Shown: positions 1 through 21,087 of the stretch, one piece after another
How the letters are laid out: each line of letters begins with the position of its first letter
How positions within the stretch are numbered: the stretch's first letter is position 1
Virus record (IMG/VR): IMGVR_UViG_3300031232_000032
Span: 1-23,412 of that record
Strand: one strand, 5' to 3'
DNA: 23,412 nucleotides
From: a virus
Notes under the pieces: model-generated
Database searches by the model: none
What the model was told of the DNA's origin: nothing
What the model saw: only the letters and a program-made list of their open reading frames with translations
Translations under genes and position numbers: made by a program

Positions 1-1364
1 CGAGAGAGGATGTCGGCCGGCGTGTGACTGGAGCTCGAGCTGTCGATCGCGTAGGAGGGGAGCGTCAGCGCCACGCTCGAGGGGAGACCGGTGAAGGTGT
101 AGAACGTAGGGACGATCCCGCCCATCAGCGTCGAGAGGATGGTTCGCGCGGTGACGTAGCCGAAGCCGCTCGAGCCCAGCGCCGTCACTACGTCGGGGTC
201 ATACGCCCCGTTGGCGAACGCGAAGTGAGATCCGCCAAAGGGGAACCCGTTGGTCTGGAGCCACTCCAGGTTGCGCCGGATGTCCGCCTTGTAGACGTTG
301 GGCGCAACGCCGGCCGAGATGTAACACCAGCCCCGGGCCGTGGTGTCGGCCGCCTGGGTGGACAAGGTGAACGTGAACGTGGTGGTGTCGCTCACGGTCA
401 CCGTGAACGTGCCGTTGTAGCCGGTCTCGTCGCAGCCCGCGATCGTGACGGAGTTGCCGTTGCTGAGCCCGTGCGCGAACGGCGTAACGATCGTCGCCGT
501 GGCTCCTGACCGCGTGTACGTAAGCGTGGGACCTAGAGCGTAGTTGGTATGGGCCCAGCCGTGAGAACCTATCGTGAACCCGGCTGCAGCGATCTCCTTG
601 ACCTGGGCGATGGTCATGTAGTTGGTCGTCCCGATCTTCGAGCCGTTCGGGTAGAGCGTGCCGACCATGCCGTTCGCCACGAGGTACGGGTATATATACT
701 GGTAGTACCCGGCGAACCCGTCGTCATGGGTGATCAGGATCTTGGGCCGCGCCGTTAGATCCTTCCAGATCCCGTAGAAATAGGCGTTGTACGGGATAGC
801 GGTGTTGGCGGTCTTCTTGATGAACCGGATCTCGATGTGCTTGATCGCCGCCATGTTCGGCGTGCCGTGGTTCACCATGTCGGCGATCTTGATCGGGAGC
901 CACCCTCGAACCGGCTTCATCGCCGTGATCCACAAGTCGGTCCAGGTGCCGTAGTTGGCGTAGGTCGAGAGCGTCGCATCGCTCGAGATCAGCGGCCAGA
1001 ACGAGGTAGCGTAGGCGCTGGTGTCGAACCCCACGTCCAGCCAGAGATAGGTGCTGCCGGTCAAGTCCCAGGTGCCGTCGAACACGCACCCGCCGAACTG
1101 GCTCGTGTTGGCGCTGGACCAGCTCGCCTTCGTCGCGAGCTTCGTGGTGTCGAGCGCGCAGGAGGCGCCGGTAGCGCTGGCGGACGGAGGGACCGCGATG
1201 GAGCCGGTGGTGGTGGCGTCCACGAGCTGGACTCCGCCGGTCCGCCGGTTCTGGCCTGACCGGTTCAGCACGGCGTCGGCCTGGAGGACGCCCATGGAGG
1301 AGATGGTCTCGGCGACGGCGGGGACAGCGAAGAGGAGCAGGAGCAGCGACAGGAGTCGGCGCAT
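1..1364 (-). CDS. Secreted CE4/NodB polysaccharide deacetylase (partial, runs off left edge)
   Basis: Translating leftward from the ATG at 1364 gives 454 stop-free codons to the window edge; the C-terminus is missing. Residues 1-18 (MRRLLSLLLLLFAVPAVA, then E19) form a Sec signal peptide with an A-x-A cleavage site. Residues about 30-205 form a beta-rich, probably sugar-binding domain. The NodB motif THDDG is at 212-216, the H-x3-H motif SHGWAH at 267-272 and a third motif, FANGAYDP, at 383-390. The metal triad would be D214, H268 and H272. CE4 enzymes remove N- or O-acetyl groups from peptidoglycan, chitin-like polymers or exopolysaccharide. Residues about 282-350 carry a separate beta-domain signature (HGL at 298-300, YNGTFTVTV at 316-324) between motifs 2 and 3. 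A purine-rich GAAAGG lies 7 bases before the ATG. The gene is last in the visible late block, in a tailspike-like position, yet the signal peptide argues for export. Enzyme class is fairly sure; substrate is unknown. Confidence 0.85.
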   Translation of the reverse strand, partial: MRRLLSLLLLLFAVPAVAETISSMGVLQADAVLNRSGQNRRTGGVQLVDATTTGSIAVPPSASATGASCALDTTKLATKASWSSANTSQFGGCVFDGTWDLTGSTYLWLDVGFDTSAYATSFWPLISSDATLSTYANYGTWTDLWITAMKPVRGWLPIKIADMVNHGTPNMAAIKHIEIRFIKKTANTAIPYNAYFYGIWKDLTARPKILITHDDGFAGYYQYIYPYLVANGMVGTLYPNGSKIGTTNYMTIAQVKEIAAAGFTIGSHGWAHTNYALGPTLTYTRSGATATIVTPFAHGLSNGNSVTIAGCDETGYNGTFTVTVSDTTTFTFTLSTQAADTTARGWCYISAGVAPNVYKADIRRNLEWLQTNGFPFGGSHFAFANGAYDPDVVTALGSSGFGYVTARTILSTLMGGIVPTFYTFTGLPSSVALTLPSYAIDSSSSSHTPADILS

Positions 1365-1375
1365 GGTGAAGCCTT

Positions 1376-1747
1376 TCACGCGAGGTTGTGGAGCAGGGAG
1401 AGGCAGAAGTCGGACAGGTGCGCGTCCGGCGCGTTCGGAGCGACGATGGTGATCACGTCGCCCGGCTCGAGGCGAGCATCGGCCGCGAGCGCGAAGGTCG
1501 CCACCGTGGCGCCAGCGGCGAAGGTTGCGGTGCCAATCTCCACGCCGTTCTTGCGGATTGAGAACGTGGAGTCGGCGTCGGAAGTGACGCTGGCAGAGCC
1601 CCGGCTGCCGGCGAACCCCTTCTGAAACGTCAGGGGCAGAGCGCAGACGCGGCGGAGGAGAACTTCACCGCCGGCCGGCGGAGCGCCCTTGTGAATGTCG
1701 AAGGTGCGAGCGTCAGCGTTCCAGGGGTGAATCTGTGGCCAACCCAT
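1376..1747 (-). CDS. Small fibre-associated or receptor-binding beta protein
   Basis: A 123-aa protein. The ATG at 1747 is preferred because AAGGAGG lies 9 bases upstream; the longer reading frame to 1795 has no such site. The C-terminal half (residues about 60-118) has alternating beta strands with FSIRKNGVEIGTATF, then FAAGA, EPGD and IVAPNAPDA. This layout (a KNG turn, then an AG-rich turn, then a GD and AP-x-APDA ending) recurs in small phage tail-fibre-associated and structural proteins. It ends 11 bases before the deacetylase start, so the two are probably co-transcribed. A short CCCTG/CAGGG hairpin lies at 1772-1784 in the 62-base gap after the large ejection protein; no T-run follows it. 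The role in receptor or glycan binding is inferred from domain pattern and position. Confidence 0.75.
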   Translation of the reverse strand: MGWPQIHPWNADARTFDIHKGAPPAGGEVLLRRVCALPLTFQKGFAGSRGSASVTSDADSTFSIRKNGVEIGTATFAAGATVATFALAADARLEPGDVITIVAPNAPDAHLSDFCLSLLHNLA

Positions 1748-1809
1748 GTGAGTGTGCCTCCTTGCGGTAGACCCTGCCGCAGGGGGGCTTGACACGTCAC
1801 CTTCGCAGG

Positions 1810-4800
1810 CTACTGGCCTTTTTGCCGGGAGGTCTTCTTCTGCTGCTCGATCTGCTCTCGCGTCTGGTACGGCCGGTTAGCCTCGGCCTGGTACCAGGGG
1901 ACCGACTGGAGGCTCATCCCCAGCGGCATCAGCGAGCGCTCCGGCATCGTGAGCTGGCTGTTCTGCGACAGCATCCGGAGCATCGACAGCGGGAACGCGG
2001 AGAGCACCGGGATCTGCTCCAGCGCCCGCTTGTTGCTGGAGTCCTGGAAGACGAACGGTGAGCCCGGGTCGTGCGACGTGGCGAGGATCGGAAGCTGCTT
2101 CCCACGGGGCCACCCCATCCGCTCGGCCGCCCGGTGCATCAGCTCGGACATAGCCCCTGCCTTACCCGTGCCCTCCTGGTAGCCGATGAGCTCGCCGTTC
2201 GGGTCTCGGATCTCCGTGTTGATCGCCGTGCCCCGGAGGATGTCCCGGTTCGGCTCTCCAGCGTACTGGGCCATCGGGTTGGCCCTGGACATCAGCGCGT
2301 CCCAGAGAGCAGACCGGGTCAGGGGAAAGTCGGGGATATTCTTCTGCGCGATGTCGCGTGGCACGCTGAGCGCGGCCTTGGCCGTGTCGTAGAGCTCCGA
2401 CTCGGTCGAGAACGGGTAAGGCATCACCACCGGCTGGTTGACCTTGTCGTGGAGCCCGGTCCAGTACAGCGGGCTGTCCGCCAGGTACTGGCCCACGGGC
2501 CGCGACTTGGACTGCTGGTATTCGTCCGGGGAGAGCATCAGCCGGCGCGACAGGTCGGGGATCCGCTCGGAGACGTTGTACACGCGCTCCGGGTGATTGA
2601 TGAATTGCTGCGCCTGGAGCGGCACGTTCTTGCCCCACCACCGGATGAAGGGGAAGAGGCCGGAGACCCGGTTCATGGCCTCGGACGTCCGGTTGGGGTT
2701 GAAGAGCAAGTCCTCTGTCCTCCGCACTGCATCGCCCACATCGCCGCCGTTGAGGAATCCGCGGATCGTGGACTGCGCGCGCGCCGCCTCCTCGGGACCG
2801 CGGCCGAAGAGCTCCGCCGACCTCTGAACGATCGGGTTGACCGATGGCCGAAGCGGGTTCAGCGACCGGAGGAGCGCGGTCCGCTTCGGGTTCGGGAGGT
2901 CGAGGTCGGCCAGCTCCTGCTCGATGCGGGGACCGATCGGCACCTTGGCGTTGTTGGTCTCGCCCAGCATGCCACGCTTGGTCATCGCGTCGCGGAGCTC
3001 GCCCAGGGTGGCGGAGTTCCCGTTGCCCGCGGCGAGGGGCGTGGCCAGCTCGTCGCCGGCGCCGTACTGGCCGCGGAGCAGGGTCTTTCGGAGCTCGCGA
3101 TCGCGCCACCACGTGGGGGAGAAGGGGGCGCCGGCCGCGCCAAACTCCTTGTAGAGCTGGTCCCAGTTGCTGCCCCAGTTCCGGATGTAGTAGCGGGGGT
3201 TCATCACGGTCGCGGGGATCTTGAAGAGCTCGGACAGCGGGGAGTAGAGGCTCCCGGGCGTGCGCGTGGCGGCCGGCGCGCGGCCGGTGCCGATGTCCAT
3301 CAGCGTGTCGTAGAACCCGCGGCCCGCGCCGCTCTGCTGGTCGATCGTCTGGGCGACGGGGATGGGAAGGGCGATCTGCTTGCCGTCGGTGGCGCGCGTC
3401 CACGCCTGCGACTGGGGCACCTGCCAGTTGCCGACGCCGCCGGGCGCCGCCGACATCGCGTCAGGGAGCTGGCCGGTGACATCCTTCCCGCGGCCCGCCC
3501 ACTGCCGGAGCAGCCGCATGACCTCGGTCTCCCTGATGTCCTTGGCGAACTTCTCCGCCTGCGGAGCCACCGCGCCCGAGAAGAAGTCGCGCGCACCGAG
3601 CTCGGGATGGATCTGGGCCATCGCGCCGCCCAGGTCGAGCCGGGTGTCTTGGGGCGGGAGGATCGACTGGTCGCCGTCGATCAGGCTCTGGGTGATGTCC
3701 TCCTGAAGGTGCCGGCTCTTCTCCGGGATCACCTTCAAGCCGGCCACCGGCCGTTGCCCCTGGGACCGGGCCACGTTGCCGGCCAGGATCTGGGGGTCGG
3801 TCGCCTGGACGGGCAGCCCCTTCGACCGCATCGCCTGCTCCGCCGCCGGCGTGGAGACGTGGCGCAGGTAGGGCTCGGAGATGTTGGCCGCCGCCGGATC
3901 GACGGCGAGCCGCTCGGCCCGGGTCGCGTCCTGCAGGGAGAGGAACGTCTGCCGCGCCGGCCAGAGCTTCTTGATGTCGGGCCGCTGGGCGCCCAGCTCC
4001 CCCAGCCAGGCGCGGAGCACGTCGTTGCCGACCGGTGACCCGATCGCCCTGTTGGGCATCGCGAGCGGCAGGCCGGCGCGCGCCGCCTCGCGCTCGATGG
4101 CCGCGGAGACGTTGGGGAACGCGGCCAGGTCGGGCGCCTTCGGGTTGAGGAGCCGCGTCAGGGTGGAGTCGACGTTGCCGCGGGCGGCCAGCGGATCCAG
4201 GAGCCGCGGGTTCCCGGACAGAAGCTCGGGATGCTCGACCGAGTCGAAGACCAGGGTCTTCTCGGCCGGGGACAACCCGGTCAGGGCGTCGCGCAGCCTT
4301 TGCGCCATGGCGTGCTGCTTCTGGCCGGCGGCGACGTTGGACTCGAGGAGCTCGTCGGCGGCGTTGATCCACTCGGGCAGCTCGGGCTGGCCAGCCAGGG
4401 CCGCAGGCAAGCGCCGCAGGGGCCCATCAGGCGACGCGAAGTCGAGCAGGCGCTGTCCGCCCTGGGTCTTGTCCGCCAACTTCGCCAGCCCCCTGCCGGC
4501 CCACTTGGCGGGTACTCCGATGCCGTACTTCGTCGCCGCGCCCAGGGCCATACCGCCGGGGGTGGGCGCCAGCATCTCGACGATCTCCGACGCGACCTGG
4601 GCCTGCTTCATCGACACCCCACCCAGGACGGGCTGGTTCTCGATCTGGGGCCGGGCGCGCTCGGTCTCCCGGGCCGAGTTGGCGACGGCGATCGCCTGCT
4701 GGACCTGGGCCGCGCTGGGGTAGTCCTTCGGCTCCCCGCCGAGGTTGAAGGACGAGGGGGCCGGTCCCGACTCCATGGCCTGTTTGAGCGCCGCGTCGTA

Positions 4801-5529
4801 GGTGCGCTGCCACACGTCGCTCGGGGTCGTGATCGAGACGGGCTTGACCTCTCCGCGCTGCTTCCAGATATCCCCCATCACGTCGCCCATGTTCTGGCGA
4901 ATGGAGGGGTGGATGATCTGTTCCCGGGAGCGCCCGGCCCATTCCTTGATTCGGTCCCAGTCTTCCCCGGGTACGGTTTGCGACTGGTCGAAGCCGGTCT
5001 TCGGTGCCGAGGGTGACGACGGCTTCCCCATCTCCGCGACAAGCTGGCGGAAGGGGACGAAGAATGAGCCCATGAAGTTGCCGACCTGGCGGAGGCCGGA
5101 GCCGTTCCCAATGACCGGCGTCTCGTTCGGGTCCACCACCGGTGCCGAGCTGCCACCGTGGTTCAGCCGGCGGAGGTCGCCCAGCGCCTGCTGCCAATTG
5201 GCGTTGGCCTTGCCGATCTCCTGCTCGTCCCTGGACGTCTGGGCCGCAACGATGCCCTGCAGCGCGGCCTTGAGGTTCCGGGCCGTATTGCCGACCGTCT
5301 GTACTTGGTTCATCGCGGCCTTGTTCTTCTGGGCGCGCGTCACGTCATCGACGGGCTCGACCGGCGGCGGAGCGGCAGGCTGCGCCGCTGCCGCCGGCGC
5401 GTCCGCGGGGTCGAAGTAGGTGATCCGGGGAGCTGGAGCTTGAACCGGAGCCGGAGCCGCGGGCTGGGGCTGCTGTGGGGCAGCCGCGCCGGGGTCGTCT
5501 GCCGGGTCGAAGTAGACGACCTTGCCCAT
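1810..5529 (-). CDS. 1239-aa internal virion/ejection-type protein with polyvalent-protein signatures
   Basis: The largest gene in the window. AGGAG lies 6 bases before the ATG at 5529, which starts just after the stop of the preceding gene. The N-terminus has two copies of the motif YFDPAD (residues 6-11 and 38-43) separated by a Pro/Ala/Gln-rich linker. The middle and C-terminal parts are mixed alpha with NPRYYIRNWGSNW near residue 776 and FPFIRWWGKNVPLQ near 958. Similar phrases (a hydrophobic-NP-x-aromatic-RN segment, then FPF-x-R) occur in very large phage-encoded polyvalent or internal virion proteins. Position after two smaller putative ejection proteins matches P22 gp16 or T7 gp16, which enter the host with the DNA. 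I see no clear lytic transglycosylase or peptidase motif. It is surely coding; ejection is an inference from order and size. Confidence 0.8.
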   Translation of the reverse strand: MGKVVYFDPADDPGAAAPQQPQPAAPAPVQAPAPRITYFDPADAPAAAAQPAAPPPVEPVDDVTRAQKNKAAMNQVQTVGNTARNLKAALQGIVAAQTSRDEQEIGKANANWQQALGDLRRLNHGGSSAPVVDPNETPVIGNGSGLRQVGNFMGSFFVPFRQLVAEMGKPSSPSAPKTGFDQSQTVPGEDWDRIKEWAGRSREQIIHPSIRQNMGDVMGDIWKQRGEVKPVSITTPSDVWQRTYDAALKQAMESGPAPSSFNLGGEPKDYPSAAQVQQAIAVANSARETERARPQIENQPVLGGVSMKQAQVASEIVEMLAPTPGGMALGAATKYGIGVPAKWAGRGLAKLADKTQGGQRLLDFASPDGPLRRLPAALAGQPELPEWINAADELLESNVAAGQKQHAMAQRLRDALTGLSPAEKTLVFDSVEHPELLSGNPRLLDPLAARGNVDSTLTRLLNPKAPDLAAFPNVSAAIEREAARAGLPLAMPNRAIGSPVGNDVLRAWLGELGAQRPDIKKLWPARQTFLSLQDATRAERLAVDPAAANISEPYLRHVSTPAAEQAMRSKGLPVQATDPQILAGNVARSQGQRPVAGLKVIPEKSRHLQEDITQSLIDGDQSILPPQDTRLDLGGAMAQIHPELGARDFFSGAVAPQAEKFAKDIRETEVMRLLRQWAGRGKDVTGQLPDAMSAAPGGVGNWQVPQSQAWTRATDGKQIALPIPVAQTIDQQSGAGRGFYDTLMDIGTGRAPAATRTPGSLYSPLSELFKIPATVMNPRYYIRNWGSNWDQLYKEFGAAGAPFSPTWWRDRELRKTLLRGQYGAGDELATPLAAGNGNSATLGELRDAMTKRGMLGETNNAKVPIGPRIEQELADLDLPNPKRTALLRSLNPLRPSVNPIVQRSAELFGRGPEEAARAQSTIRGFLNGGDVGDAVRRTEDLLFNPNRTSEAMNRVSGLFPFIRWWGKNVPLQAQQFINHPERVYNVSERIPDLSRRLMLSPDEYQQSKSRPVGQYLADSPLYWTGLHDKVNQPVVMPYPFSTESELYDTAKAALSVPRDIAQKNIPDFPLTRSALWDALMSRANPMAQYAGEPNRDILRGTAINTEIRDPNGELIGYQEGTGKAGAMSELMHRAAERMGWPRGKQLPILATSHDPGSPFVFQDSSNKRALEQIPVLSAFPLSMLRMLSQNSQLTMPERSLMPLGMSLQSVPWYQAEANRPYQTREQIEQQKKTSRQKGQ

Positions 5530-9109: not shown

Positions 9110-9340
9110 TCAGACCCCAACGGCATGCCACGTGCCGTCCAGCGAGTAGTACCCGATCACCTTGGACTGCCCGTTCACGACGACGCGGAGCACGATGCAC
9201 AGCGGGCTGCTGGCCGCGGGGTAGTGCTCTCCCCCGAAACTGGCCGCGCCACCCAGTTGGGCGGCGCCGCTTTGGCCAGTCGTCCTCGTCTCGACTCGCT
9301 CGATGCGACCGCGAGCCGACCTGTCGTCAATCTCCGCCAC
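9110..9340 (-). CDS. Small virion-module protein, unknown function
   Basis: A 76-aa protein. The start is the GTG at 9340, with AGGGGGG five to six bases upstream and a 14-base overlap with the end of the 562-aa gene; the longer frame to 9406 lies wholly inside that gene. It begins MAEIDDRSARGRIERVE and ends in two beta strands (CIVLRVVVNG, KVIGYYSLDGTWHAVGV) that look like a small beta hairpin closing with a W. I do not recognise the family. Position right after the gp10-like protein and before the fibre-like genes suggests a small tail-tip or adaptor component. Confidence 0.6.
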   Translation of the reverse strand: MAEIDDRSARGRIERVETRTTGQSGAAQLGGAASFGGEHYPAASSPLCIVLRVVVNGQSKVIGYYSLDGTWHAVGV

Positions 9341-11015
9341 GGCGGCCCCCCTGGCGCTCACGCCGCTGGATCTCGAGCGCGCGGATCCCACCGGGCGTCG
9401 GGTCAATCTGGGCGCCTGAGTAGCCGGGGAGCATCAGCGCGGGCTGGAGCCGAGCCGACCGGTCGCGGAAGCTGCCGACCTTCTTCCGGCCGGTCTTCGA
9501 GGTGTTGGGCGAGACGCCCCATGCCGTCGCTTCCGAGTAGGTCGCGTGCGTGGCGCGGGACCCAGCCGCCACGTCGGAGCGCGCCCGCGTGGCGAAGGTC
9601 TCGCTCTCCGGCGCCGCCCCGTCCAGGAGCCGAACGATCTCCTGCTCGAGGTTGGTCCCGTGGATGATCGACAGGCCCTGGAGGAACGCACCGTCGAGCT
9701 CAACCTCTGCGCGCCAGTCGCCCCAGGTCTCGATCCGCTCCGCCGTCCCGAGGGGACCGATCTGGAAGTAGGCCGGGAAGATGGAGCCGGCATCCGTCTC
9801 TCCCTCGTCCTCGAGCCAGAGGTTCCCGCCGGCGTCGCCCGTGAGGAGCATCTCCACGTGAGAGGCCGTCAGCGCCGTGGTGGCGGCCGTGACGTTGAAC
9901 GGATGGTTGACGGCCTCGCGGGAGGCCAGGTCGTACGGGTACCAGCCCGCGGCCGGGGGCTGCCATCGGTCGCTCTTGTAGTCGTAGGTCAGCATCACCC
10001 GCAGCTCCGGCCGCTCCAGCACAGGGATCCAGATCCGGTATTCCTTCCGCTTCGTGTAGTTTACCGCCACCGCGTTCTTGGCCGCGTGGGGATGAAGGTG
10101 CTTGAGGGTCTCGCTCACGGGTCCCGACAGCACCGTCGTCTTGCTGCCATCCCACCGACAGATGACCTTGTCGCCCAGGTAGATCACGGAGTCCGAACAG
10201 GTCTGCACCGACCGCGGGGCCAGGCACCCGTTCATGATGTCGCGGGTACGGGGGATCGGCGACGTGGCATCCTCGTCCGCCTCGATCAGCCCGCGGCGCG
10301 TCGGGAGCACCAGCCGGTCGTAGCAGATCGCGGCACCGGTCACGTGGTCGCCCGTCCCGACCAGCGCGTCGAAGTTGGTCGAGCCAGGCCAGGTGCTCGC
10401 TCCGCCGGCGGGGGCCAGCGGGGAGAGCATCGCGTCGTTGCTGGAGGCGCTCATTCCAACCGTGTACCGGAGCACGGCGACGACCCGGTTTCGCCACACG
10501 GCGAGGAGGGTCGCGCCTGGCGGGTTCGCGAGGTAGGTCCGCGCGCCGGGGACACCCGCATCCGTGCCAGCGTAGGCCACCAGCTCCACCAGCTTGGACC
10601 CGTCGTAGTGGAGCATCCGGCCGAACGGGTCAGCGATGATCGTGTTGCCCTTGTAGGAGACGCCGACGAAGCCAGGGGAGAGCAGCGGAGACGCCGGATC
10701 CGGGAGGCCCAGGTCGATGAACGCGCCGTTCGAGTCGTCGAAGCGGCCGAACGCGGCCCGCCGGCCATCCGTGGAGTGCCCGCCGATCAGGAGCACCCGG
10801 CTCCCGTCCGTCTCGACGTGCTCGACGATCCCGGTGATCGGAAGGCTGAGCGCCGCGAGGGGAGAGCCGATGATGACTCGACCCCTGCGGCGCCGGACCA
10901 CCCCATCCTCGATGATGACGTTCAGCGCCGAAACGATGTCGTCCTTACTGGAGCCCGCCTCGTTGTAGGAGCTCCAGGGACCGCACGTCTCGTGGTTGTC
11001 GCCGGCGTCGGCCAT
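9327..11015 (-). CDS. Tail hub/stabilisation protein, P22 gp10-like by position
   Basis: A 562-aa protein starting at the ATG at 11015, three bases after the upstream stop. The sequence is almost all beta: repeated short strands with GxS/T-D turns and WDG, YDG and GDW motifs from residue 40 to about 480, which suggests a propeller or repeated sheet. YDYKSDRW near residue 350 is typical of phage proteins that stabilise the DNA-filled head (P22 gp10, head completion/stabilisation). The last 80 residues are polar and Arg-rich (SKTGRKKVGSFRDRSARLQP), like a tail-binding extension. It follows the adaptor candidate in the same order as gp4 then gp10 of P22. Coding is certain; the gp10 assignment is by order and fold impression. 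Confidence 0.8.
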   Translation of the reverse strand: MADAGDNHETCGPWSSYNEAGSSKDDIVSALNVIIEDGVVRRRRGRVIIGSPLAALSLPITGIVEHVETDGSRVLLIGGHSTDGRRAAFGRFDDSNGAFIDLGLPDPASPLLSPGFVGVSYKGNTIIADPFGRMLHYDGSKLVELVAYAGTDAGVPGARTYLANPPGATLLAVWRNRVVAVLRYTVGMSASSNDAMLSPLAPAGGASTWPGSTNFDALVGTGDHVTGAAICYDRLVLPTRRGLIEADEDATSPIPRTRDIMNGCLAPRSVQTCSDSVIYLGDKVICRWDGSKTTVLSGPVSETLKHLHPHAAKNAVAVNYTKRKEYRIWIPVLERPELRVMLTYDYKSDRWQPPAAGWYPYDLASREAVNHPFNVTAATTALTASHVEMLLTGDAGGNLWLEDEGETDAGSIFPAYFQIGPLGTAERIETWGDWRAEVELDGAFLQGLSIIHGTNLEQEIVRLLDGAAPESETFATRARSDVAAGSRATHATYSEATAWGVSPNTSKTGRKKVGSFRDRSARLQPALMLPGYSGAQIDPTPGGIRALEIQRRERQGGRRGGD

Positions 11016-13306: not shown

Positions 13307-14617
13307 CTACCAGGGCATCGACGACGGCTTGCTGAGCCCGTACGCGCGGGCGATCGCGTTGCGGGCGACGATGGCCCAGTTGCCGCGGAACATCCAGTAA
13401 CCGACCTGGGCCGGCTTCGCGCCCGTCGAGTCGCGCCACGGGGTCATGTACTGGCCGTCCGCCTGCTCCTCGAGCTCGACGCCGTTCAGCTCGACGTAGC
13501 GCATCTGCGCGCTGTCGAGGAACGTCATCTCCGTCTCGTTGATGAACCAGTCGGCCTGGACCTTGATCTTGCGGCCAGCGACGTTGATGACCACGGCCTC
13601 CATGTTGTCGCCGATGTCGGTCACCGAGCCGTTGACGAACCGCTTGTCCTTGTACGACCCGTCGTTGCCGTAGATCAGACCGTGCTGCTGCTGCGGGTGA
13701 ACCCAAATCATGTTGAACTTGAACGGGCTCTTCTGCATGTAGCTGATCGCCATCGCGGACGCGAGGCCAGGGCCAGCGTCGGCGCCCTGCGCGTTCTTGA
13801 TGATGGCCTGCCAGGCGTCGTAGCTGGTCCCCGAGATCCCGTGGAGACCGCTGGTCGGGTCGAGCGTGCCGTCGTCCGCGAAGAGACGGAGGCCGTTCGG
13901 CTCGAGGCAGGCGCGGGTGCCCGAGTTGACCCAGGCGTTCCCCATCGTGATGACGTAGGACCCGTCAGCGATGGCCGGCACGGAGCCGCCACCGTACATC
14001 GCCACGCTGAACGTGGTGTCGGAGAGCACCGACTGAACCACCGCCCAGTCCGTCGGGAGCTCGCCGGCGCCGCCGTTCACGCGGGTGTTGGCGTTCCAGA
14101 AGTCGAGGGGCATGCCCTGCCGCAGCATCTTCGTGCTGTAGGTGCTGGTGCTCTTGATCGTGAGCGTCTGCGTGCCAGCGCCACCACCGAACGTGGCCAC
14201 GTCGCAGATGATCCCCGTTCCGTCGCCGAGGAACATCCGGTTCAGGTGGGTCTGGAGCGTGTCACGGCTGGTGTCCATCGCCATCTTCATGCCGTCCTTG
14301 AAGGCGGCCTTGTCGCCCTTCGACGCCTTGATCACGTCGTTCGTGATCTCGAAGCCGATGTGGACGTAGGACGGGACGACCGAGCCGTTCTCCGGGGTCT
14401 CAGTGCCCGTCGGAGCGTAGTACCCGTCGTGCTTGCGCGCGGCGACGTACTCGTTGCGCTTGAGGTGAGTCGCGAAGACGTACGCCTTGCCGACACCGGG
14501 GAACTTCCGCTTCGTGAACGCGGAGAACGCGACGGTGTTGTTGATCAGGGCAAAGTTCATGCCCGGCTCGTAGATGTACTTCAACGCCTTGTCGAGGGTG
14601 GTTCTGGTGTTCAGCAT
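13307..14617 (-). CDS. Major capsid protein
   Basis: A 436-aa protein placed right after the scaffold gene, the usual head-gene order. It forms the icosahedral shell. The N-terminus is helical (MLNTRTTLDKALKYIYEPG), followed by a long alpha/beta domain with glycine-rich loops (ATFGGGAGTQTLTI, YGGGSVPAI) and a C-terminal beta/alpha region with DWFINETEMTFLDSAQMRYV, typical of coat proteins where a W/F-rich strand precedes the C-terminus. Length fits P22-type or podovirus coats (about 400-440 aa). A GAAAGGG lies about 12 bases before the ATG. Neither enzyme motifs nor a protease gene are visible, so maturation cleavage is not indicated. Assignment rests on order, size and sequence character. 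Confidence 0.85.
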   Translation of the reverse strand: MLNTRTTLDKALKYIYEPGMNFALINNTVAFSAFTKRKFPGVGKAYVFATHLKRNEYVAARKHDGYYAPTGTETPENGSVVPSYVHIGFEITNDVIKASKGDKAAFKDGMKMAMDTSRDTLQTHLNRMFLGDGTGIICDVATFGGGAGTQTLTIKSTSTYSTKMLRQGMPLDFWNANTRVNGGAGELPTDWAVVQSVLSDTTFSVAMYGGGSVPAIADGSYVITMGNAWVNSGTRACLEPNGLRLFADDGTLDPTSGLHGISGTSYDAWQAIIKNAQGADAGPGLASAMAISYMQKSPFKFNMIWVHPQQQHGLIYGNDGSYKDKRFVNGSVTDIGDNMEAVVINVAGRKIKVQADWFINETEMTFLDSAQMRYVELNGVELEEQADGQYMTPWRDSTGAKPAQVGYWMFRGNWAIVARNAIARAYGLSKPSSMPW

Positions 14618-15674: not shown

Positions 15675-17897
15675 TTAAGCCGGATGTGGCGGAGCGGTCG
15701 GCCTCACCGCCGGGAGACCTTCCGCGCCCTCGGTTCCCCGGGGCGCCGAAGACTGGCCCGTGGGTCCACCGGGGCCGCCGAACTGCGGGCCAGCGCCCGG
15801 GGGCGGAGGAGCGCCGGGCGGACCGGGCGGACCAGGATGAGCTCCGGGGCCACCGGGAGGAGCGGCGCCAGGCTGGCCCAGCGCGGAGCCCTCCGGGTTG
15901 TCGGGGTCGAGGTTGGCGGCCAGGAGCTGGTGCCAGTCGCAGAAGGCGTCAGCGAGGGCGCGCATTCCAGGAGGCGCGGACCGGTAGGCGTTCGTCTTCC
16001 GGTGGCCCTTGTTCACCTGCTCGATGATCACGGCGTGGTTGTCGAAGTCGAACGCCTCGATCCCCAGCGCGCGGAGCGTGTCCCGCTCGGAGAAGGGCGG
16101 AGCCATCGGGCTCGCCATCGCGCGCATCGCCGCCTTCTGCTGGCCCTGGACGATCGCCAGCTTCACCCCGTCCACGGTCAGGGCCTGGAGCTTGGCGACC
16201 GCGTCGTCTCCGTTGTCGCGATCCTGGATGTCGGGGTCCCACTCCTCGTTGTCGGGCTCGGCCAGGTTGAGCAGCCGCATGCCGCGCTGAGGATCGAGCC
16301 ACCCGTTGCCCATGTACTTCTCGATCCGGTCGGTCCGCTCGGCGCGGGAGACGGGCAGCGCGGACCCGGGCTGGACGACGACGCCGGCGATCCCGGTGAG
16401 CTGCTCGCCCTTGAACCGGACCACCTCGGTCCGCCGGTTCGAGCCAACGATGCTGAGGAGCCGGTCCTCACGGACGCGCGCGCGCAGCATGCCCATCAGC
16501 ATCTCGCCCGACTCCTGGTAGCCGTCCTCGATGTTCTGGGAGACGGTCCCAAGCACCGTGCCCGCGTACTCCTGGAGGTAGGAGACCATCCGTCCGGACC
16601 GCGTCTCGCCCGGCGCCTTGCCCGAGAGGATGTCCGTGTTGCCGGCGAGCTCCTTCACCATGCCGATCAGCGCGTTGCGCATCTCGATGTGGTGCGCGGG
16701 GAGACCGGGCGGCGTGTACGCCTGGGGAGTGTACGGGTGGAAATATTCCACCACCTCGTCATCGGTCTTGTCCCAGCTCTCGCGCGGCACGTTCGCCTGG
16801 TAGGGGATCAGGGTCTTCGGGCGGAGCGCCTTGCGGTTGTACTCCTGCTGTGAAAACTCGATGTCCACGATCTTGTTGAGGTCGATCAGTTGCCGCGCCG
16901 TGGACGTGGAGTAGTAGCCGTCGGTGTCGATCTCCCCGAACTTCACGAAGGGGATCTCCGGCATGCCCTCGGCGACGGGCCCCGCCTCGGCGACCTCCTT
17001 GCCGTTCACGATCACGGCGTAGAGCCCTTGGTCGAAGGTGTCGCTCCCGGGAGAGTCCGGCCGCGCCGCACCCCGCCGGTAGTGGATCACCTGGAGCTCA
17101 ACGCGGTTGAGCACCGTCACGGGAACGGTGGACTCGTAGCCGTAGAGCTGGGTCAGGAGCGCGCGGCCTTGCTGCGTCGAGGGGTCGATCGGGTTGATCT
17201 TCCCGCGGAGCGACGGGTACATCGTGAGCACCTTCCCGATCGGCAGGAAGGCCCGGTAGATCAGCCGCTGGGTTCCGTCCAGGTCGTCGGCGCCCGGCTC
17301 GACCAGCACCTCGTGCGGCTTCGCTACGTCGATGAACGGCTCCCCCATGAATCCGTTCAGCGCTTCCCCCGTGCTCTGCTTGCGCTCCCACTCGCCGCCG
17401 GCCATCGGATCCCAACCGTGGCGGAGGTAGGAGATCCCGGGGACCAGCATCCACAGGATCGCCCTGCGGAGCTTCTTCCCCATCTTGAGCTTGCGGTAGT
17501 ACGCCTCGAGCACCTTCATGCCCAGGCGCGTCGCCTGGCGGCTGGCCTCGTCGGAGTTGGCCGGGACGCACGTCCACGCCGGCCGGTTCTTGGTCAGGTG
17601 GCCGAGCCGCGTCATGACCGCATTCATGGTGAGGTTGATCACCATCTTGGGGATGTCGGTCTGCTCGATCTCGATCAGCCGGTCGTCGCGCCAGCTCACC
17701 CAGTGGCGCCCCTTAAAATAGGCCCACGCCTTGAGCCACTCCCGCTCCTCGTCCGTGCGCAGGCGGAGCGCCGCGTTCTGCAGCTCCTGGACGTCCTGGA
17801 TCAGCTTGTCGGGGTTGACGTAGCTGTTGTCGACGCCGACGTTCGCCGGGTTCTGGGTGATCGCGCCGGGATCGGGAGGGGGAGGGCTCGTCAGCAT
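15675..17897 (-). CDS. Portal protein, P22 gp1-like, with collagen-like C-terminal tail
   Basis: A 740-aa protein that would form the dodecameric channel through which DNA is packaged and ejected. It starts at the ATG at 17897, three bases after the upstream stop, with AAGAAGG upstream. The core fits P22-type portals: an acidic/helical start, IPKMVINLTMNAVMTRLGHL near residue 85, PGISYLRHGWDP near 150, a helical stem region with DTDGYYSTSTARQLIDLNKI and RPKTLIPYQANVP, then NTDILSGKAPGETRSGRM near 430. Length is close to P22 gp1 (725 aa). The last 66 or so residues are Gly-Pro-rich (HPGPPGPPGAPPPPGAGP), a disordered collagen-like extension replacing the barrel or its tail. Such tails are unusual in portals. 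Strong assignment. Confidence 0.9.
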   Translation of the reverse strand: MLTSPPPPDPGAITQNPANVGVDNSYVNPDKLIQDVQELQNAALRLRTDEEREWLKAWAYFKGRHWVSWRDDRLIEIEQTDIPKMVINLTMNAVMTRLGHLTKNRPAWTCVPANSDEASRQATRLGMKVLEAYYRKLKMGKKLRRAILWMLVPGISYLRHGWDPMAGGEWERKQSTGEALNGFMGEPFIDVAKPHEVLVEPGADDLDGTQRLIYRAFLPIGKVLTMYPSLRGKINPIDPSTQQGRALLTQLYGYESTVPVTVLNRVELQVIHYRRGAARPDSPGSDTFDQGLYAVIVNGKEVAEAGPVAEGMPEIPFVKFGEIDTDGYYSTSTARQLIDLNKIVDIEFSQQEYNRKALRPKTLIPYQANVPRESWDKTDDEVVEYFHPYTPQAYTPPGLPAHHIEMRNALIGMVKELAGNTDILSGKAPGETRSGRMVSYLQEYAGTVLGTVSQNIEDGYQESGEMLMGMLRARVREDRLLSIVGSNRRTEVVRFKGEQLTGIAGVVVQPGSALPVSRAERTDRIEKYMGNGWLDPQRGMRLLNLAEPDNEEWDPDIQDRDNGDDAVAKLQALTVDGVKLAIVQGQQKAAMRAMASPMAPPFSERDTLRALGIEAFDFDNHAVIIEQVNKGHRKTNAYRSAPPGMRALADAFCDWHQLLAANLDPDNPEGSALGQPGAAPPGGPGAHPGPPGPPGAPPPPGAGPQFGGPGGPTGQSSAPRGTEGAEGLPAVRPTAPPHPA

Positions 17898-18200: not shown

Positions 18201-18567
18201 TGGCCTTCTCCTTGCGACGGTTGTCCCCCAACCCCAGCATCTCCTCGGTGGCCGTCAGCTCGCGCTTGCGCCTGACGCCCGGCTCCGGACTCGGCGCCCC
18301 GGTGTAGGCGCGCTCCGCCGCCGCGGCCTCGCTCAGGCTCTTCGCCTCGACCAGCCGCTCCAGCCGCTCCACGTGCTCGCGCCAGTCCCGGCGCTCCTCG
18401 CCAAAGCGGACGAGCACGTTGTTCAGCACCTCGTTTGCGTCGTCGCGCCCCTCGCGTGCATCAGCGAGCCGCGACTCTGAGGAAAAGAACGAGAGGAGCG
18501 CCTCGACGAAGCGCATCACCACTGCGACGCCGACGGCCCAGGCCATCCAAACCGGAAGCACGAACAT
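18181..18567 (-). CDS. Small membrane/coiled-coil protein between terminase and portal
   Basis: A 128-aa protein. The ATG at 18567 overlaps the terminase stop by one base (TGATG), with GGGGAG 7 bases upstream, so it is translationally coupled. Residues 2-18 (FVLPVWMAWAVGVAVVM) form one hydrophobic segment, followed by an amphipathic stretch with FVEALLSFFSS, then a charged helix (EERRDWREHVERLERLVEAK, residues about 63-82) likely to be a coiled coil. The C-terminus is basic and polar. A single N-terminal membrane segment plus coiled coil resembles an i-spanin (Rz) in topology, but no o-spanin partner with a lipobox is seen nearby and the position is not typical. Function unknown. Confidence 0.72.
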   Translation of the reverse strand: MFVLPVWMAWAVGVAVVMRFVEALLSFFSSESRLADAREGRDDANEVLNNVLVRFGEERRDWREHVERLERLVEAKSLSEAAAAERAYTGAPSPEPGVRRKRELTATEEMLGLGDNRRKEKANGEPVP

Positions 18568-20531
18568 CACTCTTCTCCCCAGCACGATCCGGCTCTCACC
18601 CTGCGGACCTTGCCAGACACCTGCGCGATCGGCACCTTCCCTTGCTCTGGCCAGTCCGGGGTGAGACGCGGACCGGGGAGCCTCTGCGCTGCCTGCGGGT
18701 TCGGGAGGCGCCGGATGGGCCCGCAGTGAAGGTGGACTTGGAACCCGATCGCGCCCGCCATGATCCAGTCGTCATGCTTCCCGGCGCGCGCCTGGGGCTT
18801 GCCCTCGATGTTCTCGAAGGTCTTGCACTCCGTGTAGAACACCTTGTCGTGGACGGCGATCGACGCATCGCGAATGGCGAAGTCGAGGGCCGACAGCATG
18901 TAGGGGCGAACCGCGTCGGTGGTGATCCACCCGGCGCGGTCGGTCGGCTCGGCCCCTTCCTTCCGGACGTCCAGGTGGTGCCACAGGCGCGGATACATGA
19001 TCCGCTGCGCCTCCTGGATCGCGGCGACGCCGTAGGCGTTCTGCTCGATCGCGACCAGCGCGTCGCCATAGTGCCAGCCGAGAAGGCACGCCACCTGGCC
19101 CAGCGTGCGCGACGTGGCGTCGTTGGTCCGCCAGCTCGCGACGGCGTCGCAGGTGTCGCGCCGAAGCACCACCACCTGATGGTTGTCGCCGTGCGACAGG
19201 CCAAGCGCCACGTCGGCGGAAACGATGTACTCGCAGTCCTTCCGGGGATGCTCCCAGATCTTGAGCGGACCGCCGTACTCCTCGGATACCACCACCACCA
19301 CCGGCGTCCGGCGGCCTGGGCCGCGGTCCTCGAGCGAGGTCTTGCTCTCGATCTTCCCGGTGAGCAGCGGCGGCCGGACGCCCTTGGAGCTCTTCTCCAG
19401 CGCCTCCAGCGTGCTCGCCAGGAAGAAGAGCTTGCCGCTGCCCTTGAACGCGAGCTCGTCGGTGGCCGGGTACTCCTCATCGAACACGTCCTCCGGCGTC
19501 ATGCCGGCCTTGCGCATGTCCGGGTTGTGGAGCTGGACGCGTCGGAACTGGGCCTGCTCGAGGTTGAGCTTGTACCGCTCGGCGTAGTCGCGCTCGGCCC
19601 GGCTCTCCCACTCCCAGCGCTGCTTTTCCAGGCGGGACACGGCGCGGCGACAGCGCGGGTCGATCAGCCAGGAGAGGAAGATTGCGGCCCACCCAGTCCG
19701 GCCCTCCTTCGATTCCTGGTAGTGATCGTGGAACATCCCGCTCGCCCCGTTGGCGGTGGACTCCATGATCGCGAAGGTGTCGGGGGCGAACATCAGCGCG
19801 GGGCCGACCGCGTTCCAAACGTCCTTCTCCCAGTACGCGCACTCGGAGGCATGGACGAAATGGTAGGTGCCGGAGCGGCCCGGCTCGCCAGCTTCGGACG
19901 ACGTGATCTCGAGCCGCGACTGGAGCCCCGGGTAGGTGTCCCGCGTGCGCGCGTCCGGGTTGCCGAACTTGAACTCGAGCTTGTTGCTCGCCTCGACCAA
20001 GGGCCGCTTGCTCAACGCCTTCCGCTCGTCGAGCATGTGGAACTTCTTGGTCAGGTCCAGGATCGTGGAGCTCTTCTCCTTCTTGTCCGTGATAACCAGG
20101 CCGTTCACGTACTCATGCGTGGAGCAATACTGGTAGGCAAGGGCCTGACAAAAGGTGCTGATGCCGTGCTTGCGGGACTTGAGCACGATCGCGCGGACCG
20201 GCTCCCGCTTCTCCCGGAGCTTCTCGATCTCGATCGACAGCGCGAGCTGGCCCGGGTTCAGCGTGAACGGGATCACCTTGCCGCCGTCGATGTGCGGCAC
20301 CCACAGACAGGACTCGATGAAGTACCGGTGATCGTGCTTCAACCGGTAGTCGTCGCAGCTCTCGCAGCCCTCGACGAACCCGGGATGCTCGTCCTTGTGC
20401 GCCTCGAGCGACCCGTCCGCGAGCGCCTCGGCCGCCCTGCCCTCCGCCGCCGCCTGCCGCTCATCGGCTGCACGGAGACGGGCGCGGGCAAGCGACTTGC
20501 GGGCCCTGTCCGTCGAACTGCGCTCTGGCAT
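18567..20531 (-). CDS. Terminase large subunit
   Basis: A 654-aa protein, ATG at 20531 with GAGGAG five bases upstream. It is the packaging motor: an ATPase that pumps DNA into the head plus a nuclease that cuts concatemers. ATPase: Walker A-like KSRKHGIST at residues 118-126 (an R-x-x-G-x-S version of the loop), Walker B-like HFVHASE at about 224-230 followed by AYW, the usual layout of the family. Nuclease: acidic D440 in SADVALG, HGD at 447-449, E496 in VAIEQNAYG and D587/D588 in KHDDWIMAGA. All four acidic elements are present. A basic N-terminal extension (residues 1-45) precedes the Cys pair at 56 and 59. A length of 654 is long for P22 gp2 (499 aa), mostly from N- and C-terminal extensions. 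Very secure. Confidence 0.93.
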   Translation of the reverse strand: MPERSSTDRARKSLARARLRAADERQAAAEGRAAEALADGSLEAHKDEHPGFVEGCESCDDYRLKHDHRYFIESCLWVPHIDGGKVIPFTLNPGQLALSIEIEKLREKREPVRAIVLKSRKHGISTFCQALAYQYCSTHEYVNGLVITDKKEKSSTILDLTKKFHMLDERKALSKRPLVEASNKLEFKFGNPDARTRDTYPGLQSRLEITSSEAGEPGRSGTYHFVHASECAYWEKDVWNAVGPALMFAPDTFAIMESTANGASGMFHDHYQESKEGRTGWAAIFLSWLIDPRCRRAVSRLEKQRWEWESRAERDYAERYKLNLEQAQFRRVQLHNPDMRKAGMTPEDVFDEEYPATDELAFKGSGKLFFLASTLEALEKSSKGVRPPLLTGKIESKTSLEDRGPGRRTPVVVVVSEEYGGPLKIWEHPRKDCEYIVSADVALGLSHGDNHQVVVLRRDTCDAVASWRTNDATSRTLGQVACLLGWHYGDALVAIEQNAYGVAAIQEAQRIMYPRLWHHLDVRKEGAEPTDRAGWITTDAVRPYMLSALDFAIRDASIAVHDKVFYTECKTFENIEGKPQARAGKHDDWIMAGAIGFQVHLHCGPIRRLPNPQAAQRLPGPRLTPDWPEQGKVPIAQVSGKVRRVRAGSCWGEE

Positions 20532-20533
20532 GC

Positions 20534-20938
20534 TTACTCCTCGAGGGACGCCCGCAGCCTCGCGCGATCGCGCTTCCGGGCATAGAACTCCGCGTCGCGG
20601 TGCTTCCGGTTGCAGAAGCCCGGCTTCGCGTTGAACTTCTTCTTCGCCGTGAACTCCTTGCCGCAGCACCGGTAGCCGCAGCGGAGCACCCACTCCTTCG
20701 CCGGCGCGCTGTACTGGCGGAGAGCAGCCGCGCGCCGCTCCTCCTCCCGGTGCTCTTCGATCGCGTCGTTCGCCCCGACCAGCCGCGCGATGCGCCCCAG
20801 CGGGCAGCGGCAGATCTGGCGGAGCTGGAGCTCCCGGCACTTGTCCCGCGCCAGCGGCCCCTTCATCGGGCACGCGACCTCGCCCGTGGCCTGGATCACC
20901 GCCAACGAGCTCGCTACCGTCTTGCTCAGCACGGTCAC
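20534..20938 (-). CDS. Cys-rich zinc-finger-like protein upstream of terL
   Basis: A 134-aa protein when started at the GTG at 20938; the longer frame to 21112 runs through the tRNA and is rejected. An ATG at 20866 would give 110 aa. The C-terminal region has CGYRCCGKEF and then FCNRKHRDAEFYARKR, a C-x3-C-C ... C-x3-H pattern like the small zinc-binding fold of bacterial CGxxF fingers. The N-terminal part also has a Cys cluster (ACPMKG, DKCREL, ICRCPLG), which argues for the longer start. The protein is basic and could bind nucleic acid, for example as a packaging accessory or regulator. It ends two bases before the terminase ATG. Function unproven. Confidence 0.65.
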   Translation of the reverse strand: MTVLSKTVASSLAVIQATGEVACPMKGPLARDKCRELQLRQICRCPLGRIARLVGANDAIEEHREEERRAAALRQYSAPAKEWVLRCGYRCCGKEFTAKKKFNAKPGFCNRKHRDAEFYARKRDRARLRASLEE

Positions 20939-21015: not shown

Positions 21016-21087
21016 CTGGGAGGGCAGGATTCGAACCCGCGATCTTCGGCTTAACAGGCCGACGCCTTACCGCTTGGCTACCTCCCA
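21016..21087 (-). tRNA. tRNA-Asn (anticodon GUU)
   Basis: A complete 72-base cloverleaf on the minus strand. The acceptor stem TGGGAGG pairs with CCTCCCA over seven base pairs. The D-arm has a GCC/GGC stem and a 9-base loop containing GG. The anticodon stem TCGGC/GCCGA encloses the loop CTGTTAA with anticodon GTT. The T-arm is GCGGG/CCTGC (one G-T pair) with the loop TTCGAAT. The discriminator base is G, as expected for bacterial tRNA-Asn. CCA is not encoded. It lies 6 bases after the stop of the 78-aa gene, within the late block, so it would be cut out of the operon transcript. Confidence 0.95.

Follow-up and report, generated by a model that had tools for sequence, protein, structure and literature searches.

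The gene that closes the tail block of a P22-like podovirus encodes a polysaccharide deacetylase of the CE4 family preceded by a Sec-type leader that looks functional, and it is quite probable, judging from the sequence, that the protein is exported in either of two roles, as a free enzyme or as a tail enzyme. The explanation favored here, to which slightly less than an even chance is given, is that of a late enzyme, exported by the Sec system, that would alter envelope or capsule glycans, probably receptors; passage through the periplasm on the way to the virion tail is its close rival. A preliminary description of this DNA had reported a CE4 gene with a Sec-type leader, and this basic observation is confirmed by the reading frame, the Pfam NodB match, and the leader score.

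The Structural Gene Block

The window, which is the whole stretch of 23,412 bases analyzed, is an IMG/VR virus record without an associated host assembly, and a second genome scan for a host gave no match. Read on the minus strand (Table 1), it contains the structural genes of a P22-like podovirus, in the order large terminase, P22-type portal, scaffold, capsid, head-closure protein, 1239-aa protein, 139-aa tail-fiber-type protein and, as the last gene, the deacetylase; the assignment to the P22-like podoviruses is based on the occurrence of portal, terminase, capsid, and head-closure protein within one block. The head-closure protein has a leader-bearing homologue in the genome G008. A tRNA-Asn (GTT) is located at 21016-21087 on the minus strand, upstream of the terminase genes.

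Table 1. Features of the structural gene block and of the deacetylase gene, with positions in the window.
Feature	Position	Strand	Remarks
Large terminase, start uncertain	18567..20873	-	phrog_2 E=3e-16
P22-type portal protein	15675..17897	-	PF16510 E=3e-14; phrog_156
Major capsid protein	13307..14617	-	phrog_14242 E=7e-15
Head-closure/stabilization protein, leaderless	9327..11015	-	phrog_3287, phrog_578
1239-aa tail/internal virion-type protein	1810..5529	-	synteny marker with L002 (48% identity)
139-aa tail-fiber-type protein	1376..1795	-	phrog_29809 E=2e-14; tail families phrog_11660, phrog_7049
Shine-Dalgarno-like AAGG	1372..1375	-	7 nt before ATG1364
Sec-type signal peptide (residues 1-18), MRRLLSLLLLLFAVPAVA	1311..1364	-	own rule; predicted cut after A18, before E19
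Beta-sandwich domain (~residues 45-203)	756..1232	-	position as galactose-binding-like domain of HFTV1 turret protein
NodB, first part (residues 204-282)	519..755	-	PF01522 over 204-275
Motif 1, THDDG (212-216)	717..731	-	catalytic base D214, metal ligand D215
Motif 2, HGWAH (268-272)	549..563	-	metal ligands H268, H272
Inserted virion-type beta-domain (~residues 283-356)	297..518	-	phrog_5838 E=5e-8, phrog_9998 E=7e-7
NodB, second part (residues 357-454), motif 3 AFANGAYD	3..296	-	ends at contig end, before motif 5

Gene Start and Leader of the Deacetylase

The deacetylase frame (1364..3, minus strand) comprises 454 aa without a stop and is open at the contig end, the 3' end of the gene being missing. 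An alternative upstream GTG (1379) overlaps the stop of the 139-aa gene (GTGA), an arrangement as in coupled genes. The preliminary description had considered an internal start at M24; no ribosome-binding site or Shine-Dalgarno motif was found before this codon, whereas ATG1364 has its AAGG at 7 nt.

The leader consists of MRR, the stretch LLSLLLLLFAVP, and AVA, with E as the following residue. It was evaluated by a rule of our own, complemented by inspection, which takes into account a positive n-region, a 9-residue hydrophobic core, and small residues at -3 and -1, all of which are present in the deacetylase. The resulting score of 4.78 is reached by random N-termini with P = 6.5e-5 for the composition of the protein itself and P = 4e-5 for that of the virion proteome of the window, corresponding to only 4-6.5 residue shuffles per 100,000, and by 2 of the 718 start codons followed by at least 60 open codons on both strands; by inspection, these two are the two starts of the deacetylase gene itself. 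The best-scoring cut of the rule falls after A16, two residues before the standard-looking AVA-E site after A18. Among the virion-module genes of the window the deacetylase is the only one flagged (1/19) and, in a P22 control, the rule flags only Rz, Rz1, and GtrC, which are secreted or membrane proteins, and none of the virion proteins examined. The 18-residue hydrophobic signal peptide ending in AVA before E19, as originally described, is borne out by score and shuffles, while the idea of an N-terminal anchor becomes less likely because the leader carries a standard signal peptidase (SPase) I site.

The Enzyme Domain and Its Insert

The NodB domain is recognized by PF01522 with E=3.3e-13 and 50.1 bits vs. 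a cut-off of 23.1. In an alignment of 11 phage CE4 proteins (that of the window and ten others) D214, D215, and H268 are invariant and H272 is nearly so. Motif 3 reads AFANGAYD in the window vs. AYPYG or AFPNGAY in the relatives, with replacement of the conserved P384 by alanine, and the place of the motif-5 histidine is beyond the end of the contig. Of the NodB motifs listed previously, THDDG and H-x3-H hold, while "GAYDP" turns out to be part of motif 3.

Directly after the metal-binding H-x3-H the domain is split by an insert of ~70 residues, which, besides the virion families listed in Table 1, has a weak match, below the Pfam cut-off, to the endosialidase beta-barrel PF12195. The insert is absent from all other rows of two alignments pooled for this comparison (18 distinct phage relatives, phage G being present in both and counted once) and, taken in isolation, gave no phage match by tblastn, though profiles do match it. 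The mature protein has four cysteines, of which C311 and C347 are located in the insert.

A Widespread Beta-Sandwich and NodB Layout

The order of domains in the window protein, a carbohydrate-binding-like beta-sandwich followed by NodB, is the one that characterizes virion CE4 proteins of the type of the HFTV1 turret head protein (THP), and a beta-sandwich before NodB is also found in a TM7 phage, in Bacillus phage G, in Gordonia and Arthrobacter phages, and in many IMG/VR contigs. Single-protein scans of viral and genome contigs gave no relatives of the deacetylase; the family profile matches the HFTV1 turret protein along almost its entire length (E=4.9e-8), and the structure of this protein is the top PDB fold match both for a relative (E=1.8e-15, model pLDDT 70.6) and for the weak AlphaFold model of the window protein (E=1.6e-6, pLDDT 51), which, being poor, was left out of disulfide geometry. 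These profile and fold matches add the window gene, as a new and unusual case, to a layout that is widespread and usually virion-borne; it departs from its virion relatives in two respects, the leader and the insert inside NodB.

The HFTV1 THP (gp31; PDB 8QPG/8QPQ) is composed, like the window protein, of a galactose-binding-like domain and then a deacetylase-like, CE4-type domain, and no bacteriophage homologue was found by its authors; unlike the window protein, it is an archaeal-virus capsid turret with an anchoring N-terminal part, for which a signal peptide is not mentioned and no insert is reported (PMC12494034). The minor tail proteins or "glucosaminyl deacetylases" of Gordonia phages, the protein of TM7 phage DolZOral124_53_65, and gp673 of Bacillus phage G share the order of domains; those read have tail-type N-termini and lack both the leader and the insert of the window protein. 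Gp36 of Arthrobacter phage Gorpy (L018:2716-4077) combines the same two domains with an export-type N-terminal leader, but this leader is Tat-like with a twin arginine, and the gene adjoins integrase and membrane-protein genes, not tail genes. The tailspike deacetylases of G7C (PMC10743462) and Aristophanes (PMC8471582) are likewise phage tail enzymes that deacetylate surface polysaccharide; they are virion tailspikes for which a signal peptide is not mentioned, and the comparison with the window protein concerns function. As regards export, the endolysin Lys44 of phage fOg44 is, like the putative case of the window, a phage enzyme exported before lysis by a cleaved Sec signal, but it is a lysis cell-wall hydrolase and not a glycan deacetylase of a tail block (PMC6116005), and Lom is a known exported phage membrane protein (PMC12309495).

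Two further CE4 proteins with leaders are encoded by virus records. In IMGVR_UViG_3300045997_000038 (L155:7797-10537), a CE4 deacetylase with a leader and a Thr-rich linker is located just upstream of the terminase genes and adjoins a membrane family-2 glycosyltransferase (PF13632 E=2e-19; weak chitin synthase match); the pair looks like those of NodC/NodB or PgaC/PgaB type and could make and deacetylate an exopolysaccharide. The 44-kb record IMGVR_UViG_3300032365_000044 (L171:8968-9714) has a short CE4 protein with the leader MKKSAILAVIVSIVFVLFSAVMANA and no beta-sandwich.

The Corresponding Slot in the Nearest Relative

The nearest relative, IMGVR_UViG_3300045051_000890 (hereafter L002), is syntenic with the window from the terminase to the 1239-aa protein, with 41-48% identity in the large terminase, portal, capsid, and 1239-aa protein. 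Directly downstream of the 1239-aa homologue it encodes a pectate-lyase-fold protein resembling tail proteins (PF12708 E=2e-11; phrog tail E=6e-8) with the leader MRLRYLAVLVLAATVARA, followed by D, and with AGGAGG 8 nt before the start. Different glycan-active enzymes thus occupy the same slot in the two phages, each with a leader. No virion-anchor region shared by the two proteins was detected after their leaders (P=0.33), which counts against a virion role for the deacetylase; in place of a virion-attachment region, the window protein has its leader and a short linker. Alignment scans with the 1239-aa protein and the capsid recovered only L002 and distant relatives without a visible slot gene.

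Leaders on Tail Proteins of Other Podoviruses

The frequency of leaders on tail proteins was surveyed in collar fibers from a motif-pattern sample of IMG/VR contigs (n=115 genes with intact 5' ends), where a loose rule flags 10/115 and a convincing leader at the start is seen by eye in 1/115. This one is located on the podovirus contig IMGVR_UViG_3300042988_000862. Seven of its tail-block proteins are flagged, including the collar fiber, a 1090-aa fiber, and a 794-aa protein that matches head closure Hc3 (phrog_578 E=2e-7), whereas none of capsid, portal, and terminase is. The contig is P22-like, and most of its tail-block proteins have leaders (L173:455-11043, L172:18612-19733, L029:2991-3704). 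In the complete podovirus MW202554.1, whose capsid and portal (about 23% identity) make it a distant relative of the window, leaders are present on a fiber matching Pfam Collar (E=1.7e-23) and on four further proteins of the virion block. The leader-bearing genes (L005:12265-16170, 22934-23428, 27470-28495) encode, besides the collar fiber, a LamG protein and three others of the virion block, one of which, of 846 aa, contains six closely spaced cysteine pairs. Shine-Dalgarno motifs precede many, but not all, of these leader starts. No leaders occur on the virion-block genes examined in three other Manatee Spring genomes.

The proposition that tail proteins commonly bear leaders is rejected by the collar survey and by the genomes without any. 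The general statement made at the outset, that virion proteins normally lack Sec signals, stands for the P22 virion proteins examined and for all but about 1/115 of the collar fibers and fails for two podovirus genomes, whose leaders on clear tail proteins mean that a signal peptide alone does not exclude a virion role. No report of Sec signals on tailed-phage tail proteins was found in the open-access literature, subscription papers being outside the search.

The leader-bearing proteins are also richer in cysteine, 0.98% in the mature proteins vs. 0.37% in leaderless virion-module neighbors (P=9e-7; P=3e-5 without the most cysteine-rich protein), in a set that is small and chosen by leaders, namely the leader-bearing podovirus proteins together with the window gene, the L002 spike, and the L155 CE4. 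Such an excess is as expected for proteins maturing in an oxidizing compartment, to which it points in a way that is suggestive only.

Role of the Deacetylase

In the favored explanation, a protein made of a virion-type glycan-binding beta-sandwich and a CE4 domain would be re-routed by its Sec signal peptide. Expressed late together with the tail genes, it would be exported by the Sec system with cleavage of the leader after A18, and the mature metal-dependent enzyme would deacetylate glycans of the envelope, capsule, or matrix, both on the infected cell and on neighboring cells. The benefit would probably lie in receptor alteration, with fewer progeny re-adsorbing to debris, reduced superinfection, and easier spread. 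Glycan alteration is the best-supported idea for the role of an exported enzyme by analogy with Aristophanes, since cells pretreated with its purified tailspike deacetylase are not infectable by that phage (PMC8471582) and a released deacetylase could similarly hinder re-adsorption or superinfection and ease spread.

This exported free enzyme is supported by the improbability of the leader (P 4e-5 to 6.5e-5), its being the sole one in 19 virion-module genes, the Shine-Dalgarno start, and the intact metal-site residues, as well as by the different, also leader-bearing glycan-active protein in the L002 slot, with which no virion anchor is shared; the L155 CE4 and Gorpy gp36, two other phage CE4 proteins that seem to be exported, add to this support. 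Against it are the position in the tail block, the virion-type insert, and the fact that most relatives of the same layout are tail or turret proteins; moreover, the motif 3 proline is lost, the contig ends before motif 5, and in a diderm host an enzyme exported to the periplasm would have yet to gain access to the cell surface. Of the export proposed previously, the phage CE4 enzyme with its functional-looking leader stands, and export is the most economical reading.

The close rival, to which a substantial but minority probability is assigned, is a tail enzyme, equivalent to a tailspike or turret, that is exported by Sec, folds in the periplasm, where it may form disulfides, and joins DNA-filled heads only at lysis. 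The deacetylase gene in fact closes the tail block, following a tail-fiber-type gene, the L002 gene in the syntenic slot resembles tail proteins, the insert in NodB is of virion type, and fold and layout are those of the HFTV1 turret protein; leaders on collar fibers and on a head-closure protein in other podoviruses and the cysteine contrast, within its small, leader-chosen sample, point in the same direction. This route is opposed by the lack of a recognizable virion-attachment region after the leader, or of one common to L002, by the presence of a single leader within the window's own tail block, and by the lack of a published precedent for Sec-exported tail proteins in the open-access literature. 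In a broader and rather unlikely form, some podoviruses would routinely make tail-block proteins as Sec pre-proteins, comprising collar and long fibers, glycan-active enzymes, and even a head-closure protein. Maturation of the tail components would then take place in the periplasm, their encounter with DNA-filled heads would be delayed until lysis, and the window deacetylase would be the enzymatic end piece.

It is improbable that the leader does not direct export with cleavage and that a cytoplasmic or membrane-anchored protein is incorporated into virions by the normal route. The tail-block position and the leaderless virion relatives would agree with this, but the n-, h-, and c-regions are canonical with AVA before E19, the hydrophobic core is too short for a typical anchor, and the L002 protein in the same slot also bears a leader, with a strong Shine-Dalgarno motif. 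An artefact, i.e., a wrong start with M24 as the true one or a chimeric contig end, is very improbable, since the location at a contig end, where assembly errors are commoner, and the in-frame ATG at codon 24 are outweighed by the Shine-Dalgarno motif found before ATG1364 and not before M24, by the overlap of the upstream GTG with the stop codon of the phage tail gene before it, and by an insert that is itself a phage virion domain.

Implications

If the leader works, phages export enzymes of the virion toolkit, the simplest purpose being to alter receptors in the surroundings of the infected cell; for phage depolymerases, such a route has received little attention. In the accepted picture phage tails are assembled wholly in the cytoplasm, and an exception to it would be needed if tail parts take a periplasmic route. 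For the turret enzyme of HFTV1, reported without a bacteriophage homologue (PMC12494034), there is now a broad phage family.
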